From an uncultured Clostridia bacterium (lineage in GTDB: Bacteria > Bacillota > Clostridia > Lachnospirales > Lachnospiraceae), in contig CAMOSC010000006.1 of the NCBI GenBank assembly GCA_946624325.1, forward strand, positions 1 to 36,890: a DNA stretch of 36,890 nucleotides, given 5' to 3'. The notes beneath the pieces are model-generated. The model saw only the letters and a list, made by a program, of their open reading frames with translations. It was not told the origin of the DNA and did not search any database. The position numbers and the translations under genes are program-made. Positions 607-20,033 of the stretch are shown piece after piece. The first letter of the stretch is position 1. Each line of letters opens with the position of its first letter.

Positions 607-2409
607 ATGGACAGGAAAGCGGTACGGGAACCGTCTATAACCGGGATTGCAAGGCGGCTGATCCGCAATCTTTTTATCCCGATCATTTCCCTGATCATTC
701 TTTATCTGGATGTATCCTATCTCTATTTTATGAATGATGCCCTGTCCTCGCAGCAGGCAAGGTTTGAGGCGGCCGCTCAGGCATCGGAGCAGATCCGGGA
801 TAATGCGGAGCAGTTTTTTTACTCGGTAGAGAGCATTCCGGAACTGACCTATATTCTGGATACCTATTCCGAGAAAAAGGACGTACTCTATGCGCTGTTA
901 AAGACCCTGCGCCCCCAACTGGAAAATATGGTACTGAATAATCCGGCCATTTCAGACGTCAGAATCTACAGCATCCGTCCGCTGCTGCTTCGGGCGGAGC
1001 CGCTGCATTCCCCGGAGGAGCTTGAGCTGTCCGCGGCAGAGGCGGCGCGCCTTTCCTCCCGGTACGGAAACCGCCTTGCCTGGCGCTGCACGGCCTCGGG
1101 GGATCCGGGCGTTCTGCCGAAGATCTCCGCCATTTACCGCCAGAACGGGTACAATTATGTAAAGCCCATCGGATATATTGAGGCCGGGATTTCCGATGAA
1201 GCATTGGCTGCCTTCTGCAGGCAGTTTACGCATTCGGAAAGCTATCACGGCGGAGCCTTTTCCGTCTATCAGGATGATACGCTGATCTATACGGACGGTC
1301 TTTTGGATGCCCCCCTGACGGGGCGGGAGCTTGAGCGGGCAGCCGAAAAGGGAAGCCTGTTCCTGTTTCGCTCTCTGCGGTATGTAAACTGCGTGAGCTT
1401 TCCGGAGCTTTCCCTGCGTATCACGATCACGGGCTCCGTTTCCAGCCTTTCCGGCGGCATACCGTTGGTTCTCCTGGCTTTCCAGACCGTAATCCTGTTT
1501 ATTGTCGCAGCGCTGCTGATCCGGTATTACAGGAACATGAAGAGCCTTGCCCTGCGGATTTCCGAATTTTCCGGCTTCATGGAGACAGCCAGCCCTGAAA
1601 TGCTGACCGAATACCGTCCGGATGCCGCCGATGGGACAGGCTATATTGAACTGACCAAGCTGGTAGAGGCCTATAACCGGCTGATCTTAAACAACCGGGA
1701 GCTCCAGAGGAGGCTTCGGGAAATGGAGCATCTGACGGAGGAATCCAGATATCAGGCTCTGCAGGCACAGATTCATCCGCATTTCATTTACGGCACTCTG
1801 GAGAACATCCGGATGCTCGCGCTCCAGAACCATGACCGGGATGCAGCCACCATGATTTACGCGCTCTCAAACCTGATCCGCCGGACCATCTCCATCTCCT
1901 CGGATGCGGTGAGCCTGCGGGAGGAGCTGGATGCCGCTCACGATTACCTGAAAATCCAGCAGATCCGTTTTGGAGGGCGATTTACCTATGCAGAGAATGT
2001 TTCCGTTGACCCGGACGAGGTTTTCCTGCCCTCCTTTACCCTTCAGCCGCTGTTGGAAAACGCCATCATTCACGGCGTCTCAAAGACCGATGAGGACTGT
2101 CTTCTGACCCTGACCATAGCCCGGACGGAAACCCGGGTGAAGATCGTGGTTCATAATACCGGTCCTGCCGCCTCGGAGGACCGGCTCAACAGGGTAAACC
2201 TTCTGCTCGCGGGAGGACTGGCCCCCGAAGATTTTGAAAAGGACGGGCATGGCAGGGCGCTTTACAATATACGCGAGCGCCTGCGTATTGTGTCTGAGGG
2301 AGAAGCCTCGATCCGTCTGGACAGAGATTTCTCCGGAACAGCCGTGCTGATTTCGCTTCCGGCTGACCGGTTCACGTCAAAGGAGGAAGGTTCATGTTTC
2401 ATATCCTGA
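607..2409 (+). CDS. YesM-type sensor histidine kinase (extracellular sensor, HAMP-like, His_kinase + HATPase)
   Basis: ORF 600 aa; TM near N-term, second TM ~aa 280-305, 'QIHPHFIYGTLENIRMLA' H-box, 'LQPLLENAIIHGV' N-box, 'GHGRALYNIRERL'; overlaps start of the response regulator. Confidence 0.93.
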   Translation: MDRKAVREPSITGIARRLIRNLFIPIISLIILYLDVSYLYFMNDALSSQQARFEAAAQASEQIRDNAEQFFYSVESIPELTYILDTYSEKKDVLYALLKTLRPQLENMVLNNPAISDVRIYSIRPLLLRAEPLHSPEELELSAAEAARLSSRYGNRLAWRCTASGDPGVLPKISAIYRQNGYNYVKPIGYIEAGISDEALAAFCRQFTHSESYHGGAFSVYQDDTLIYTDGLLDAPLTGRELERAAEKGSLFLFRSLRYVNCVSFPELSLRITITGSVSSLSGGIPLVLLAFQTVILFIVAALLIRYYRNMKSLALRISEFSGFMETASPEMLTEYRPDAADGTGYIELTKLVEAYNRLILNNRELQRRLREMEHLTEESRYQALQAQIHPHFIYGTLENIRMLALQNHDRDAATMIYALSNLIRRTISISSDAVSLREELDAAHDYLKIQQIRFGGRFTYAENVSVDPDEVFLPSFTLQPLLENAIIHGVSKTDEDCLLTLTIARTETRVKIVVHNTGPAASEDRLNRVNLLLAGGLAPEDFEKDGHGRALYNIRERLRIVSEGEASIRLDRDFSGTAVLISLPADRFTSKEEGSCFIS

Positions 2410-3854
2410 TTGTGGATGACGAGCCCATTATCCTGAACGGATGCAGGATGATGATCACCGAACTGCTGGAGCTGGATTTTCAGGTCAGTGTTTCTACTGC
2501 ACAGAGCGTTTCGGCAGCCGAAAAGATCCTGCTGGAGCAGCCGGTTGACCTGGTCCTGGCGGATATCCGCATGCCTGTCCGTGACGGCTTTGACCTGATC
2601 CGTTTTGCGGGAGAGAATGCCCTCACGCCTGATTTCGTGATCCTCACGAGCCATGCGAGCTTTGACTACGCGCAGAAAGGAATCCGCCTCGGCGTCCGGG
2701 ATTTTATTCTGAAGCCCATAAACGAAGAGCAGCTGAGGGCGGTCATAACAGCCTCCCGTGCCAGGAAGGAGCAGCGGGAGCAGGCGCTTTTAAAAAGCCG
2801 CTACCATGATATCCTGACCATGCTCCGCTATGACATCACCCCCGGTGAGCTGATGCTGGAAAGCAAAACGGTCGCGGCGCTTTTCCCGCTGCCCTGGTTT
2901 CAGGTGATTGCCGTTCAGTTTGCCGCGGAAATGCCGCAGGAGAAGGATTACCCGGGCATCCTGGACAATTACTGTCCGGTTTCGCATGCTTTTGTCCTGC
3001 GGGACGTACAGCAGTTTATCTGGATCTGCAACTTTAACAGCCCGGCGGAGCTGAGCGTAAAGGCTGAGCCGCTGCTGCGCGATGCTTTCCATGCCCCCTT
3101 CCTGTTTGCGTCGAGCATGTATACCGACCTTTTCGACAACCTGCACAGCCTTTATGTCAACGTACAGCAGAAGCTTTTTTACAGCAGGGTTTTCGGGGAA
3201 AATGCCAGCGCGGTTTCGGCTTCCCTGTTTTCCTACCAGGACTGTCTGGCCGTATTGTTTTCCGAACGGGAGGAGACGGAGCGTGCCGTTTCGACACTGC
3301 TCAGGCGCCTTTCCGTCCGCAGGGACGATACCCCGCAGGCGTTTTCCATGATTCTGGAAAGCTTCCGTCAGAATCTGGTGCTGTATTATACGAATTCACA
3401 GCTGACGGTTCCGGAGAAGCTGCAGGAAACGCTGCCGGTGCCGGCATCCTATGCGGAACTGAAGCAGGCTGTCATCCGCCTGACGGATACCGTGCGTGAA
3501 CAGACCCGGGACAACCGGAAGGAGGATGGCGACAGGCAGGTTATTTCCCATCTGCTGAAGTATATACGCACGCATTACAGGGAAGACCTCTCCCTGGACG
3601 ATCTGGCGAAGGCGGTCGGCCTGCAGCCCGGCTATATCTGCACGCTGTTCCGCAGCCAGACCGGGAACTCCTTTCTCACCTTCCTCCATCAGGAGCGGAT
3701 CCGTGAGGCAAAGCAGCTGCTGGAGAGCACGGATGACACGATGGAAGTGATTGCCGGGAAGGTGGGTTATAACAGTACGACACAGTTCAACCGGGTCTTC
3801 CGCAAATATACTCAGATGACGCCTGCGGAATACCGGAAAAGCCATAGCGGGTAA
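2394..3854 (+). CDS. YesN/AraC-type response regulator
   Basis: ORF 486 aa; receiver 'ILIVDDEPIILNG...LVLADIRMPVRDG...LKPINEEQL' and C-terminal AraC HTH 'LSLDDLAKAVGLQPGYICTLFRSQTG...VGYNSTTQFNRVFRKYTQMTPAEYRK'. Confidence 0.95.
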   Translation: MFHILIVDDEPIILNGCRMMITELLELDFQVSVSTAQSVSAAEKILLEQPVDLVLADIRMPVRDGFDLIRFAGENALTPDFVILTSHASFDYAQKGIRLGVRDFILKPINEEQLRAVITASRARKEQREQALLKSRYHDILTMLRYDITPGELMLESKTVAALFPLPWFQVIAVQFAAEMPQEKDYPGILDNYCPVSHAFVLRDVQQFIWICNFNSPAELSVKAEPLLRDAFHAPFLFASSMYTDLFDNLHSLYVNVQQKLFYSRVFGENASAVSASLFSYQDCLAVLFSEREETERAVSTLLRRLSVRRDDTPQAFSMILESFRQNLVLYYTNSQLTVPEKLQETLPVPASYAELKQAVIRLTDTVREQTRDNRKEDGDRQVISHLLKYIRTHYREDLSLDDLAKAVGLQPGYICTLFRSQTGNSFLTFLHQERIREAKQLLESTDDTMEVIAGKVGYNSTTQFNRVFRKYTQMTPAEYRKSHSG

Positions 3855-3941: not shown

Positions 3942-6521
3942 GACTTCCTCGGCGGACAGTCCCATGGGGAAGATGCGCTGCCGGCTTTCCGGGGCCCGGA
4001 ATACCAGGCGGTAGCGCTTTCCGGCTTCGGCAGGGAAGGTTACGATGGACCGACCGCCCTCTGCCGCTGCGAGTCCCCTGCCGTTCGCCGCATCCGACAC
4101 CGCAGGCAGTCCGTCCGCCGCATCGGTCACCGCAAGCAGTCCGTCTGCCTGCAGCCTGCACGGCCCGCTCTGAGAGGCGGTGATAAAGCCCTCCGTAAGA
4201 TGGCTTTCCTTCCAGGCCAGGTCCACGGTGTATCCGCCGCGGGCCTTCATGCCCTTCAGGCAGCCCTCCTGCCAGTCCGCGGGAATGGCGGGCAGCAGAC
4301 GGATCACACCGTTCTGGCTCTGCAGAAGCATTTCGGCGATTCCGGCTCCCAGGCCGAAGATGGCGTCGATCTGCTGCGTGTTCTTTGTCAGCATGCCGCA
4401 GCCGAAGCCCTTGCCCATGCTCTTGATCAGATGGCCGCATTCCAGTGCGTTTCCGAAGCGTGCCTCCAGGCAGATGCGCCAGGCGGCCGGCCAGCCGCCG
4501 GATTCCGCGGCATGAAGCTGCCTGCGCTCAAGGCTTCTTCGGGCTGCCTCAAAGAGTCCGGGCGTCTTTTCGGAAATCAGGCTTCCGGGATAGACCGGGT
4601 ACATATGGGAGATATGGACCATGCCCGGCGAGCACTCCTCATAATCCTCCTGCCATTCCAGCAGCTGACCGTACTTCCCGGTTTTGTAGGGCGGGAAACG
4701 CCGGCCGGCTTCCTTCAGCTTTTCCGTAAAGTCTTTATCCCCCATGTTCAGGAGTTCATCGGCCCTGCAGACGTTTGCAAACAGCTCGCGCAGAATGCTC
4801 ATATCCATGGTGCAGGCGGTGGTCACCGCGCTGATGGAGGGGTGGTTTGGCGAGCAGCGGCTGCCGGAAGCGATTTCCTCCGCCAGTGAAGCGGTTTCCT
4901 CCGCGCTGCCGGTGAGGAAGCGGTTTTCCGGGGATATGGACGGCGCCGTGACAAGAAAACCCTCCGCGTTTTCCGTCAGGAAGCCGAGCATAAATTCCGC
5001 CTGCTCCCGCAGAACGGGATACATTTCCCGCAGAAAATCCAGATCGCCCGTGTACTCGTAATGGGTCCAGATATGCTGGCACATCCAGGCGCCGCCGAAG
5101 GGCCACCAGGACCAGGCGGCATCCTCGCAGGCAGGCTCGCTGCCCCGCCAGAGATCCACGTTGTGGTGGGCGGTCCAGCCGCCCAGATGATAGTAATGCT
5201 CCGCGGTTTTCCTGCCTGCTATGCGCAGTTCCTTCAGCATTTCCATGAGGGGCAGGTGACATTCCGGCAGGGCCAGCGGCTCCGCGGGCCAGTAATTCAT
5301 CTCCACGTTGATGTTGGTGGTATAATTGCTGCACCAGGGCGGGGCGGGCTGATCGTTCCAGATACCCTGCAGGTTGGCGGGCTGTGAACCCGGCCTGGAG
5401 CCGGCAATGGTGAGATAGCGGGAGTACTGCAGATACAGCGCGTAGAGCGCCGGATCGTCGCAGCCGCGGGCGCAGCACTCCATCCGCTTTGAGGTGGGAA
5501 GGCTGCCTGTGAGGGCTTTGCCCAGATCGATTTCCACCCGGCCGTAGAGGGAGCGGTAATCCTCGATATGCTCGGAGAGGAGCGCTTCAAAGTCTTCCCG
5601 CACCATCCTGTCCTTCATGCGCGCCAGGTCCCCCAGGACCGAGCGGGCGAGGCTTTCCGTGCGGTTATCCCGGGGTATCCCGAAGCCCGCATAATTGGTT
5701 TTTGCCTGCAGGGCGATGCAGGCATGGCTCGCGTGATTCACATAAATGCGCTGGCCGTCGGTCAGTACGGTTCCGTCCGTAGACAGAATGGATGCGGCCG
5801 CGGCAAAGCGCAGGGCCTTCGACGCCTCTTCGGGTCCGTAAAAGGCGGCGGGCGTCACCGGCGTATAGCCGGGCTCGCAGTGGTCCGGTGCAATACCGGT
5901 CAGAAGGAATGCGTTTTCGGTTACCCGGCTTTCGCTCTTTAATACGGATTCGAGGTCCAGGGCAAAACACAGGGGCTTCGGATCATTGTCGGAGGATGCA
6001 AAAAAACGGATCAGTGCGCAGTCCGCCGGATGGCTGACAAAACAGCTGCGTGTATAGCGGATTCCGTTCGCATCCCAGCTGACGGTTTCCACGGCTGTTT
6101 CAAGGTCCAGTATCCTGCTGTAATCCGCATCGGCAGCGGGCTTTTGCTCTATGATATTTTTCAGAGCCATGTTCCGGGTGTTATCCGGCATGCCCGTCAT
6201 AATGTGGAGGCTGGCCATGGGCAGATAGGTCTCCTGCCACCTGCCGGCCATCTCGTCGTTGATGATGTTGTTGGCCTCCTTGACCTGTCCGGAGAGGGAG
6301 AGGCGTCTGACCTCCATCAGCTTCTCATAAAAATCCGGCCTTTCGGCAAAGGATTCGCTGCCGGACCAGAGGGTATCCTCGTTGATGAATATTTCCTCCC
6401 GCGGTATCCGGCCCATGACGGAAAGGCCAAGCCTCCCGTTGCCGAGATAGTGGGCATCCCAGAAAGCCTCCGCCGGTTTCTGCTCATAAAGGTAATAGGA
6501 TGTGTGCCTGTCTGTATGCAT
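3939..6521 (-). CDS. Glycoside hydrolase family 95 (alpha-L-fucosidase-like)
   Basis: 860 aa; 'AFWDAHYLGNGRLGLSVMGRIPREEIFINEDTLWSG...', 'NLQGIWNDQPAPPWCSNYTTNINVEMNYWPAEPLALPECHLPLMEML', 'WTAHHNVDLWRGSEPA' typical of GH95. Confidence 0.93.
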   Translation of the reverse strand: MHTDRHTSYYLYEQKPAEAFWDAHYLGNGRLGLSVMGRIPREEIFINEDTLWSGSESFAERPDFYEKLMEVRRLSLSGQVKEANNIINDEMAGRWQETYLPMASLHIMTGMPDNTRNMALKNIIEQKPAADADYSRILDLETAVETVSWDANGIRYTRSCFVSHPADCALIRFFASSDNDPKPLCFALDLESVLKSESRVTENAFLLTGIAPDHCEPGYTPVTPAAFYGPEEASKALRFAAAASILSTDGTVLTDGQRIYVNHASHACIALQAKTNYAGFGIPRDNRTESLARSVLGDLARMKDRMVREDFEALLSEHIEDYRSLYGRVEIDLGKALTGSLPTSKRMECCARGCDDPALYALYLQYSRYLTIAGSRPGSQPANLQGIWNDQPAPPWCSNYTTNINVEMNYWPAEPLALPECHLPLMEMLKELRIAGRKTAEHYYHLGGWTAHHNVDLWRGSEPACEDAAWSWWPFGGAWMCQHIWTHYEYTGDLDFLREMYPVLREQAEFMLGFLTENAEGFLVTAPSISPENRFLTGSAEETASLAEEIASGSRCSPNHPSISAVTTACTMDMSILRELFANVCRADELLNMGDKDFTEKLKEAGRRFPPYKTGKYGQLLEWQEDYEECSPGMVHISHMYPVYPGSLISEKTPGLFEAARRSLERRQLHAAESGGWPAAWRICLEARFGNALECGHLIKSMGKGFGCGMLTKNTQQIDAIFGLGAGIAEMLLQSQNGVIRLLPAIPADWQEGCLKGMKARGGYTVDLAWKESHLTEGFITASQSGPCRLQADGLLAVTDAADGLPAVSDAANGRGLAAAEGGRSIVTFPAEAGKRYRLVFRAPESRQRIFPMGLSAEEV
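4081..4140. repeat. 30-bp tandem duplication inside the GH95 C-terminal region
   Basis: CCGTTCGCCGCATCCGACACCGCAGGCAGT followed by CCGTCCGCCGCATCGGTCACCGCAAGCAGT; encodes repeated ADGL(L/P)AV(T/S)DA. Confidence 0.85.
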
Positions 6522-16204: not shown

Positions 16205-17158
16205 ATGGATTTTCGGTCGATCCGTTACTTTGTTGTGGTAGCCCAGGAACTGAATTTTACCCGGGCAGCGGAGAAGCTGCATATGAGCCAGCCTCCGCTG
16301 AGCAACCAGATCCGTGATATGGAGCTGGATCTCGGTGTGCAGCTGTTTGTGAGAGGCAAGCGCCATCTGACCCTGACGGAGGCGGGCTGGGTTCTGTACC
16401 GCCGTGCACAGCAGATGCTGGAGCTGGCCGATAAAACCCGCGAAGAGGTAGGCGCGCTGGAGAAGGAGCTTTCCGGAAAAGTCTGCATAGGGCTGGTGGA
16501 AGGAAGGGCCCCGTTTCTGGCAGCCAGATGGGTGGCGGGCTTCCATGAGGAGTTTCCGCTGGTCCGCTATGCCATGTGGAACGGCAGCAGCGACGATGTA
16601 CTGGACCGTCTTGAGCAGGGCCTCGTGGATCTTGCGGTCATTGCGGCGCCCTTTGACAGGGAGCATCTGGACGGCTTTACGGTCGGCTCGGAGCCCTGGG
16701 TGGCTATTATACCGGGGAACCACAGGCTGGCGGAGAAACCCGGTGAGCCTCTGGCGCTGCGGGAACTGGTCGGGGAGCCCCTGATTGTGCCGCAGCGCAA
16801 ATCCCGCATTGAGGCGATTGAGCGCTGGTTTTCCGGAATCGGGGCCGGCGTGGACATCCTCTGCACCCTGTCCAATTATCTGGATGCGGTGGCTCTGGTG
16901 GAACAGAATGCGGGGATCGCGATCTTTCCGCAGACCACCTATACGCCGAACCGGCATGTGGTCTCCCGCGTGATCGTGGAGCCTGCGAAGATGGCGGAAT
17001 ATGTGCTGGTGTGGAACCGCGGGCAGCAGCCGACGGGCGTTGCCGGGGAATTCATCCAGTATGTCCAGGATTTCCTGGAGGAGGACCGGATTCATCAGGA
17101 GCGGTTCCGCGTGAAGGAGCAGGAATTTGTTATTCCGGAAGGCGCGCAGTTGTTATAA
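16205..17158 (+). CDS. LysR-family transcriptional regulator
   Basis: MDFRSIRYFVVVAQELNFTRAAEKLHMSQPPLSNQIRDMELDLGVQLFVRGKRHLTLTEAG... HTH and substrate-binding domain. Confidence 0.95.
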   Translation: MDFRSIRYFVVVAQELNFTRAAEKLHMSQPPLSNQIRDMELDLGVQLFVRGKRHLTLTEAGWVLYRRAQQMLELADKTREEVGALEKELSGKVCIGLVEGRAPFLAARWVAGFHEEFPLVRYAMWNGSSDDVLDRLEQGLVDLAVIAAPFDREHLDGFTVGSEPWVAIIPGNHRLAEKPGEPLALRELVGEPLIVPQRKSRIEAIERWFSGIGAGVDILCTLSNYLDAVALVEQNAGIAIFPQTTYTPNRHVVSRVIVEPAKMAEYVLVWNRGQQPTGVAGEFIQYVQDFLEEDRIHQERFRVKEQEFVIPEGAQLL

Positions 17159-17169
17159 GGAGCAGTGTT

Positions 17170-18105
17170 ATGACATTTCAGGAATATCTGGAAGAGGACA
17201 GGGAACGGTTTACCCAGGCGTTGATCAAGGCGGAATCCCCGGAGCGGGCCGTGGCGGTGGTAGAGGCGGAATATGACCGCCTGCTGCTCCGGTATAACGA
17301 CGGCTGCGGCGACAGCGGACTGCGGGAACAGGCCGCCATGATGATTCAGGCCGCCAGAGCCGGAGCGATAGTGGACTGTGTCGGGGAAATCCGGGTCTGG
17401 GAGCGAAGCGCACAGACCGCGGAAGCGGAACAGAAGCGCAGGCGGAGCTTTGGCGCGGCGGGACTTGGGTGCATCGCGGTGTCCGTGATCGGAAGCATTC
17501 TGCTGCATCCGCTCGGGGTGGGCATCAGTGCCGTCATTCCCGGAGTGTTTTGCGCGGCTTCCGGTGTCCTGTTGTATCTGGCGGGCCGGAGCGCGGGACA
17601 GGGAGGCGGAACAAACCGCATTCTGCGTCTCCTGCGCCTTCCCGGGAGCAAAAATCCTGCGCTTCCCGCTCCCGGGGCCGGTGAGGAGGTCCTGCCGGAC
17701 GGGTCTGTCCGGCGGCTGGAAAAGCTGGTGGATCCTGCAAGGATTTACCGCTCGGTCCATACTGCCCTTCTGATTGTGGACCGGAATCTGGAGGAGGCAG
17801 CCTCGAGGGCCCGGTGGACCGAGTCCGGAAGCGGCGACTTTGCGCAGGATACCGACGAGCAGGAGCTTACGGTTTTTGCGGATCTGCTGGAAGCGGTCTA
17901 CAGCGGCGACGGACAGTTTGCCCTGGACAGGCTGAAATCCCTGAAATATTACCTGCACAGAAGGGGAATTGAGACGGCGGATTACCGCGAAGAGACCAGG
18001 GAGTATTTTGACAGGATGCCGTCCGCGGACGGTCAGGCCCTGACGATCCGCCCGGCCCTCCTGAAGGATGGGAAGCTGTTGAAAAAAGGTCTGGCGGCAG
18101 GCTGA
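17170..18105 (+). CDS. Unknown two-TM membrane protein, partner of Hsp70-like gene
   Basis: ATG 17170 (MTFQEYLEEDRERF...), 311 aa, central hydrophobic hairpin 'GLGCIAVSVIGSILLHPLGVGISAVIPGVFCAASGVLLYLAG'; 11 nt after LysR and 17 nt before the next CDS. Confidence 0.82.
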   Translation: MTFQEYLEEDRERFTQALIKAESPERAVAVVEAEYDRLLLRYNDGCGDSGLREQAAMMIQAARAGAIVDCVGEIRVWERSAQTAEAEQKRRRSFGAAGLGCIAVSVIGSILLHPLGVGISAVIPGVFCAASGVLLYLAGRSAGQGGGTNRILRLLRLPGSKNPALPAPGAGEEVLPDGSVRRLEKLVDPARIYRSVHTALLIVDRNLEEAASRARWTESGSGDFAQDTDEQELTVFADLLEAVYSGDGQFALDRLKSLKYYLHRRGIETADYREETREYFDRMPSADGQALTIRPALLKDGKLLKKGLAAG

Positions 18106-18122
18106 GGAATACGGAGGAAAGT

Positions 18123-20033
18123 ATGGATCGTTTTTTCGGATTTGACCTGGGCGATGCGGAAAGCGCGGTTGCCCGGCTGGAGAAGGGAGACCAGGCCGCG
18201 CCGGAGCTGATTGCCGTCCAGGGGGAGAAAAGCTTTGTTACGGCGTATGCCCTGCTGCCGGAGGGCGGCTTTGCCCTGGGTGAGAAAGCCTGCTACAGTG
18301 CGGACGCGCTCCGGCGGAAGATCCGCTTTAAGAGCCGTTTCCTTAAGGATCCGGGGAGCCGCGCGGATGTGAAGAGCTTTGCCGCCGGGGTGCTGGGCGA
18401 GCTGTACGGGAGCGGGGATCTGGTCAAAAATGAAGACTGCTGTTTTTACGTCGGTTGCCCCGCCGGCTGGAATAAAAACACCCGGGAGGAGTACCGTGAG
18501 CTGTTTGAGCGGGCAGGTTACCCGCCCGTAAGGATTGTGTCGGAATCCAGGGCCGCCATGGTGAGCGCCTGCCAGTCCAAGCACCTGCAGGTGGGCTATG
18601 ATATCCTTTCCAGACCGGTGCTGGTGGTGGATATCGGGTCGTCCACAACGGATTTTGCCTATATCATGGGCGGACATGAGGTGGAAATGCAGACCGCCGG
18701 CGAGGTGGTGCTGGGCGGCGGCGTCATGGATGAAATTCTTCTGGAGGAGGCGGTGAACGCCTCGGAGAATGCCGAAGCCATCCGGAAGATTTTTGCGGAG
18801 AGCGAGCCCTGGAAAAACTTCTGCGAGTTTGCCATGCGGCGCCTGAAGGAAAAGTATTATGCGGACGAGGAGTACTGGCAGGAGCATGAGTGCGCGGAAA
18901 CCTTAATGATCTACTACCGGGGACGGGAGCGGCTGAAGCTGTTCATGAACCGGGAAATGGCGGACAAGGCGGAGCGCCGCGGGAGCGGGACGCTGTCCGG
19001 AAAATCTTTCTATGAGGTATTCTCCGAGAGCCTGCTGGCAGTGAAGGAACATATCCAGGGCCGGGATCCGGAGCTGATTTTTCTGACGGGCGGTGTATCG
19101 AAGCTTCCCGCGGTTCGCGGATGGTGTGCCGAGGCCTTCCCGGATTCCGTGGTAATTGCCGGAATGGAACCGGAATTTGCGGTCGCAAGGGGGCTGGCCT
19201 GGAGCGGAAGGATTGACGAGGAGCTGCGGGAATTCCGGGCGGATCTTGAGCAGCTGAAGCAGTCCAGCTGTGTGGAGGATATCGTGAGCAGCCACATGCC
19301 TCAGCTTTACCGGGATATCGTGGACGTACTGGTGGAACCGCTGCTTTCCAAAGCCGCTGTCCCGGTATTTGAGGGGTGGCGCGACGGCGCGATTGAACGT
19401 CTGAGCGATACGGACGGGCGTCTGCAGGAGGAAATCGGCGCATATCTGCGAACGGAGGAAGCACGGGAACTCCTCGGGAAAACCATCGCGAAGTGGCTTA
19501 AGCCCATTGCCGATGAGCTGGAAGAGCATACGGTTCCGATCTGCGTCCGGCATAATGTCCCATACAGGGCACTGAGCCTCAACAGCTACTTCGCCGCGTC
19601 GGATATTGATATCCATGTAAATGCCCGGGATGTATTTGCCGTGGAGGAGGTGACATTCCTGATTGATTCGATCATCTCCATTTTCGTGGCCCTTCTGTGC
19701 GGCGGCGGGGGAATTGCGCTGATATCCAGCGGGCCCAGCGGCATTGTGGCGGGGGCCATGCTGTCCCTCCTGCTGCTGTTCCTCGGAAAGAAAAAAATGG
19801 AGGATGCGCTGCTGAAGGCAAAGCTTCCGAAGCCCGTGCGTAAACTCGTGCCGAGAAATGCATTCCGTTCCCGCATGGAAAACGTCACCGGCACCGTGAA
19901 GGCCCGTTTTTATGAGAATCTGGAAAAAAACAGGAATGAGGAGATTACCGCACGGCTTGTGGATGAAATCTCGGCCCAGATTGAAAACTGCCTGACCCGG
20001 ATGGCCGAGGTCGTTGAAATCCCGCTGGGATAG
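18123..20033 (+). CDS. Hsp70/actin-fold ATPase with C-terminal membrane hairpin
   Basis: 636 aa; phosphate-1 'FFGFDLGDAESAVARL', phosphate-2 'PVLVVDIGSSTTDFAYI', adenosine motif 'IFLTGGVSKLPAVRGW'; C-terminal TM 'FLIDSIISIFVALLCGGGGIALISSGPSGIVAGAMLSLLLLFLG'; no recognisable Hsp70 substrate-binding domain. Confidence 0.88.
   Translation: MDRFFGFDLGDAESAVARLEKGDQAAPELIAVQGEKSFVTAYALLPEGGFALGEKACYSADALRRKIRFKSRFLKDPGSRADVKSFAAGVLGELYGSGDLVKNEDCCFYVGCPAGWNKNTREEYRELFERAGYPPVRIVSESRAAMVSACQSKHLQVGYDILSRPVLVVDIGSSTTDFAYIMGGHEVEMQTAGEVVLGGGVMDEILLEEAVNASENAEAIRKIFAESEPWKNFCEFAMRRLKEKYYADEEYWQEHECAETLMIYYRGRERLKLFMNREMADKAERRGSGTLSGKSFYEVFSESLLAVKEHIQGRDPELIFLTGGVSKLPAVRGWCAEAFPDSVVIAGMEPEFAVARGLAWSGRIDEELREFRADLEQLKQSSCVEDIVSSHMPQLYRDIVDVLVEPLLSKAAVPVFEGWRDGAIERLSDTDGRLQEEIGAYLRTEEARELLGKTIAKWLKPIADELEEHTVPICVRHNVPYRALSLNSYFAASDIDIHVNARDVFAVEEVTFLIDSIISIFVALLCGGGGIALISSGPSGIVAGAMLSLLLLFLGKKKMEDALLKAKLPKPVRKLVPRNAFRSRMENVTGTVKARFYENLEKNRNEEITARLVDEISAQIENCLTRMAEVVEIPLG

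Follow-up and report, generated by a model that had tools for sequence, protein, structure and literature searches.

A two-gene unit of rumen and gut Clostridia encodes an Hsp70-like ATPase with a C-terminal membrane hairpin and a partner membrane protein

The stretch of DNA analyzed here (the window) comprises 36,890 nucleotides of a contig from an uncultured Clostridia bacterium of the Lachnospiraceae and carries, on the forward strand, two genes separated by a 17-nt spacer. The first encodes P0001, a 311-aa membrane partner protein (17170–18105, +), and the second P0002, a 636-aa Hsp70-like ATPase with a C-terminal membrane hairpin (18123–20033, +). Both open reading frames were confirmed at these coordinates, in agreement with a first-pass annotation made from the sequence alone, which had described closely spaced genes for a 311-aa protein with two transmembrane (TM) segments and a 636-aa protein. 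Ribosome-binding sites precede P0001 (AAGGAG, 17157–17162, +) and P0002 (GGAGG, 18113–18117, +). Identity with relatives over the full length is 59–67% for P0002 and 33–42% for P0001, and neither is therefore a chance reading frame. A genuine LysR-family regulator gene (16205–17158, +) lies 11 nt 5' of P0001, where the annotation had placed it; its membership in the unit did not hold up, because it adjoins the pair in the window and in no other locus, and it is thus regarded as incidental. In a genus-mate of the window the pair is present without any of the window's immediate neighbors, and therefore either the unit moves or its surroundings do. Directly 3' of P0002 (20089–21255, +) is a gene, not conserved beside the pair, whose product has a signal peptide and an HCTEGKDRAG motif resembling that of tyrosine phosphatases, and positions 607–3854 (+) hold what look like a sensor kinase gene followed by a response regulator gene, a putative two-component pair.

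P0001 consists of an N-terminal helical domain (about residues 1–80), a TM hairpin formed by residues 94–112 and 117–135 (17449–17574, +), a C-terminal helical domain and a conserved tail (18040–18102, +; TIRPALLKDGKLLKKGLAAG). The hairpin is predicted in 30 of 39 relatives, with a single TM segment in the other nine. The tail, with the pattern RPA-V-DG-LLKKG-A, is the best conserved segment of the protein (conservation 0.82), followed by the N-terminal domain (0.70) and the C-terminal helical domain (0.69), with much lower values for the hairpin (0.38) and the linker (0.11). Such a distribution would be expected of a protein whose cytosolic parts carry out its function, and would fit a partner working through protein contacts and using the membrane for anchoring alone. 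No match to P0001 was found in profile libraries or among known folds, including a Foldseek search with its predicted model, and by the searches run it is unrelated to RodZ, FtsZ, and PilN. When a profile of the tail was run over 1728 ORF C termini, the best match outside the family was the partner protein of a distant pair (L075, represented by two overlapping loci) and the second best was the C terminus of a GrpE, in which LRPAMV resembles the RPA-V of the tail. This resemblance covers 11 residues at an E-value of about 0.1, which is chance level, and P0001 was rejected as a GrpE-like exchange factor; neither GrpE (PF01025) nor a J-domain was among the listed Pfam hits of 39 partner proteins.

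The ATPase head of P0002 (residues 1–365; 18123–19217, +) matches Pfam HSP70 (PF00012) above cut-off (E 4e-9), with MreB second, and DnaK residues 1–361 align with the family profile (E about 1e-11). Residues Asp8, Lys70, Glu141, Asp170, Thr175, and Asp177 correspond to Asp8, Lys70, Glu171, Asp194, Thr199, and Asp201 of DnaK, and a TGGVS adenosine motif is present. The predicted model of P0002, which is moderately confident (pLDDT 67, pTM 0.45), matched the heads of DnaK, BiP, and MreB in Foldseek. The residues for ATP binding and hydrolysis are kept in three deep lineages, including the Calothrix and L075 relatives described below. The intact actin/Hsp70 motifs read by the annotation are thus borne out, and P0002 is likely to be an active ATPase. 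The best NCBIfam match is YegD/PRK11678, which at 27.5 bits falls far below its cut-off of 331; the YegD model spans 450 aa and has no stalk, hairpin, or partner. In one locus (L079:2867–4655, –) a P0002 homolog is interrupted, with residues 1–367 and residues 413–636 encoded by separate ORFs in different frames; this break at the head-stalk junction is a frameshift, a deletion, or an assembly error.

The head is followed by a long helical stretch (residues 366–513; 19218–19661, +), in which Trp419, Trp458, and Cys474 are common to the three lineages, a glycine-rich TM hairpin (residues 516–555; 19668–19787, +) and a basic helical tail (residues 556–636; 19788–20030, +), predicted to be cytosolic and ending in an invariant EIPL. 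This arrangement is that given by the first-pass annotation, and the hairpin is kept in all 37 close relatives. No substrate-binding domain or lid was detected, as had also been noted; the Pfam HSP70 match stops at profile position 374 of 599 and the DnaK linker DVLLLDV is absent. Searches of the PDB and NCBIfam with the C-terminal half gave no match, and no solved dynamin was found by sequence. The rear part of the PADLOC LeoBC profile (PDLC03841), corresponding by position to trunk and paddle, matched a distant P0002 relative (L085) with an E-value of 5e-7, and overlapping regions of the profile matched the window P0002 (E 0.006) and the Calothrix relative (E 0.0075) weakly. The link to dynamins thus rests on one PADLOC profile. 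LeoBC is a component of the Eleos defense system.

Positively charged residues flank the hairpins of both proteins. Among P0001 relatives, the 15 residues before the hairpin hold a mean of 3.2 Lys + Arg, with 5.0 after it and 1.2 in the loop. By the positive-inside rule, this charge distribution would place the soluble domains of P0001 and P0002 in the cytosol, on the same side as the flanks of each hairpin. The annotation had put soluble domains at the membrane; the membrane location stands and is here sharpened to the cytosolic face, whereas an envelope location does not agree with the charge pattern.

A homolog scan of one genome per species across 84,980 species returned 59 loci, nearly all from rumen or gut Clostridia. 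In every one of the 59 fetched loci a P0001 homolog, encoded on the same strand, lies directly upstream of P0002, and in most of them the two are within 50 nt of each other. Within one rumen genus, both genes occur in the same 32 of 47 genomes and neither occurs in the other 15; among 200 genomes sampled from the window's family, P0002 and full-length P0001 were each detected in four, and these are the same four genomes. The two genes thus co-occur, and the outcome that the annotation named as refuting, a pair not conserved together, did not arise. The pair is single-copy in all 13 genomes tested and rare (1 of 300 genomes in a phylum sample, 2 of 341 in a class sample, besides the 4 of 200 in the family), and no third component is conserved beside it. 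Evolutionary distances of P0001 and P0002 correlate with r 0.94, a value that has no independent gene as control. The anatomy of the two proteins and their pairing are firmly established, and it is probable that they form a physical complex. No description of the pair was found in the open-access literature searched and no described family matches it, so the annotation's view of a candidate undescribed system is upheld.

The layout of the pair recurs in three far lineages. A conjugative plasmid of the cyanobacterium Calothrix carries the gene for a P0002 relative of full length (27% identity across residues 5–626), preceded by a 268-aa two-TM protein that is matched by the partner profile (E 3e-4); no P0001-like tail was seen in this partner. 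A second clostridial family (L075) has a P0002 relative at 22% identity with a partner whose tail could be aligned. A further deep phylum lineage (L085) has one at about 20% identity with a full-length profile alignment, the C-terminal half alone giving an E-value of 1e-10 in a one-sequence test; its partner tail (RPIIISGEVRKKGLVRK) is similar by eye and weak by profile. Either an old origin or wide transfer accounts for this spread. Two other distant matches were discarded, one as an ordinary GrpE-DnaK operon (L086) and one as an unrelated Hsp70-like gene (L084:1255–2712, +; G1055), which encodes 485 aa, is overlapped at its start by a coiled-coil gene and is followed by a helicase-like gene. 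The Calothrix pair sits among integrase and phage-integrase genes (L065:2084–13575), and a gene with a putative Cas6-like start (L088:2738–3493, +) is found close to the distant pair of G012:C29.

Loci of the rumen genus often contain a perfect TATAAT close to the start codon of the partner gene: it stands 2–16 nt ahead of the ATG in 24 of 45, compared with 0.8% of background windows. Of the 518 ORFs in these loci that reach 200 aa, 25 have TATAAT at a distance of exactly 9 nt upstream of an early ATG, and all 25 are P0001 homologs; many relatives among L006–L064 show this arrangement, for example L010 around position 5100. With the promoter ending 9 nt upstream of the start codon, the first gene in this genus is predicted to be transcribed from its own sigma-70-type promoter into a leaderless mRNA, and many rumen relatives look leaderless. 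In the window species, by contrast, P0001 has an ordinary ribosome-binding site, and the TATAAT promoter of the rumen relatives is absent. No CIRCE or CtsR site was found in any of the 45 upstream regions, nor was a LexA operator, and transcription of the unit looks constitutive.

Hsp70 heads are usually seen as the drivers of soluble chaperones. Here a head of this type, apparently catalytically intact, is part of a protein that carries a membrane hairpin and has an obligate partner in the membrane, from rumen Clostridia to a cyanobacterium, and if the pair works it would represent a new coupling of Hsp70-type ATP hydrolysis to the bilayer. The reading we favor, with somewhat less than even confidence, is that the pair may be a two-protein, cytosol-facing ATPase machine of the inner membrane, an ATP-cycled scaffold or remodeling complex. 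In P0002, the Hsp70/actin-type head would sit on a helical stalk in place of a substrate-binding domain, with the stalk leading to the hairpin and basic tail. P0001 would be the dedicated membrane partner, anchored by its own hairpin with its N-terminal domain and tail in the cytosol. As the head binds and hydrolyzes ATP, it would move the stalk at the membrane surface, and P0001, probably via its tail, would control nucleotide exchange, hydrolysis, or head assembly. Together they would form a scaffold that remodels or organizes the membrane or a complex within it. Physical interaction, topology, ATP-driven movement, and output are all what we infer for the pair, and membrane scaffolding or remodeling as its output is a tentative assignment that could well be wrong. 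With two genes only and no conserved third component, the unit is directly testable. The annotation had suggested an ATP-driven membrane scaffold, chaperone, or stress/defense device; the scaffold is still the best reading, whereas the stress and defense part found no operators, significant PADLOC matches, or phage relatives to sustain it.

The mechanical analogy would be to head-stalk-hairpin proteins such as dynamin-like proteins, mitofusins, and atlastin. LeoBC, BDLP1, mitofusin, and atlastin share with P0002 the order of head, helical stalk, hairpin or paddle, and helical tail, and LeoBC adds profile similarity to the rear half. LeoA–C belong to the bacterial dynamins, and the paddle of LeoA is hydrophobic and rich in glycine (PMC4159319); bacterial dynamin genes often come in pairs (PMC6104087). 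Unlike these proteins, P0002 has an Hsp70-type ATPase head and not a dynamin GTPase. Because P0002 lacks the GTPase head and sequence searches recovered no solved dynamin, the LeoBC similarity is treated as support for a stalk-and-paddle mode of working and not for dynamin membership. The bolder form of the proposal, an ATP-driven counterpart of mitofusin and dynamin in which an Hsp70-type head has taken the place of the GTPase on a dynamin-like stalk and paddle, with a dedicated membrane cofactor, is speculative and rather unlikely.

Another reading, an unlikely one, is that P0002 is an Hsp70-like chaperone tethered to the membrane and serving membrane or nascent proteins, assisted by P0001 as a co-chaperone or as its nucleotide-exchange factor. 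P0002 resembles DnaK in its ATPase head, catalytic residues, and adenosine motif, with the equivalents of Lys70 and Thr199 in place, and the RPA-V of the P0001 tail recalls GrpE. Against this, P0002 differs from DnaK in lacking the substrate-binding domain, lid, and linker and in having a TM hairpin; its companion is a membrane protein rather than GrpE or DnaJ, no gene for either of which is conserved near the pair; the GrpE likeness does not rise above chance; and heat-shock control was not seen, with no CIRCE or CtsR site upstream.

An actin-like membrane filament or assembly ATPase in the style of FtsA, PilM, or MreB, anchored to the membrane or linked to cargo by P0001, is improbable. P0002 shares the ATPase superfamily and membrane association with MreB, FtsA, ParM, and PilM: MreB_Mbl matches 36 of 37 relatives and FtsA 26, weakly in most, the heads are matched by a PHROG "partition protein" (ParM-like), and MreB appeared in Foldseek. 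P0002 nevertheless scores better as an Hsp70, exceeding the Pfam cut-off for HSP70 and staying below that for MreB (MreB_Mbl, 19.0 bits against 27). Actin-like filament proteins usually bind the membrane via an amphipathic helix or a partner, and a TM hairpin of its own on a long helical region is atypical for them. Nor are cell-division, pilus, or partition genes conserved among the neighbors, which look mostly housekeeping.

It is also quite doubtful that the pair serves phage defense or abortive infection, with the head as infection sensor and the hairpins as the cause of membrane damage; this reading is retained because of the patchy distribution and the plasmid copy. The unit shifts between contexts, its rear half resembles LeoBC of Eleos, and Hsp70-like ATPases occur in other conflict systems, namely the GAP1-N2/DO-GTPase systems (PMC7159879) and CoCoNuT with its CnuD (PMC11090510). 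Those ATPases, like P0002, lie outside canonical chaperone operons and some lack a peptide-binding domain; their partners are GTPase, tubulin, GrpE, McrB, and nuclease proteins, in contrast to the single membrane partner of P0002. PADLOC 2.0 returned very weak hits for the window proteins, none of them significant, and no hit at all for the partner proteins. No relative was found in phages or viral contigs, and a viral origin of the pair was rejected on that basis. Defense-gene clustering was not noticed, the promoter looks constitutive, the pair is single-copy without effector diversity, and in one genus it is common and syntenic among its housekeeping-looking neighbors.

A LysR-regulated three-gene metabolic operon, suggested by the 11 nt between the LysR gene and P0001 in the window, is most improbable and largely refuted by the comparative data, in which LysR adjacency is confined to the window, the genus-mate shares the pair only, and P0001 of rumen relatives is immediately preceded by a promoter.
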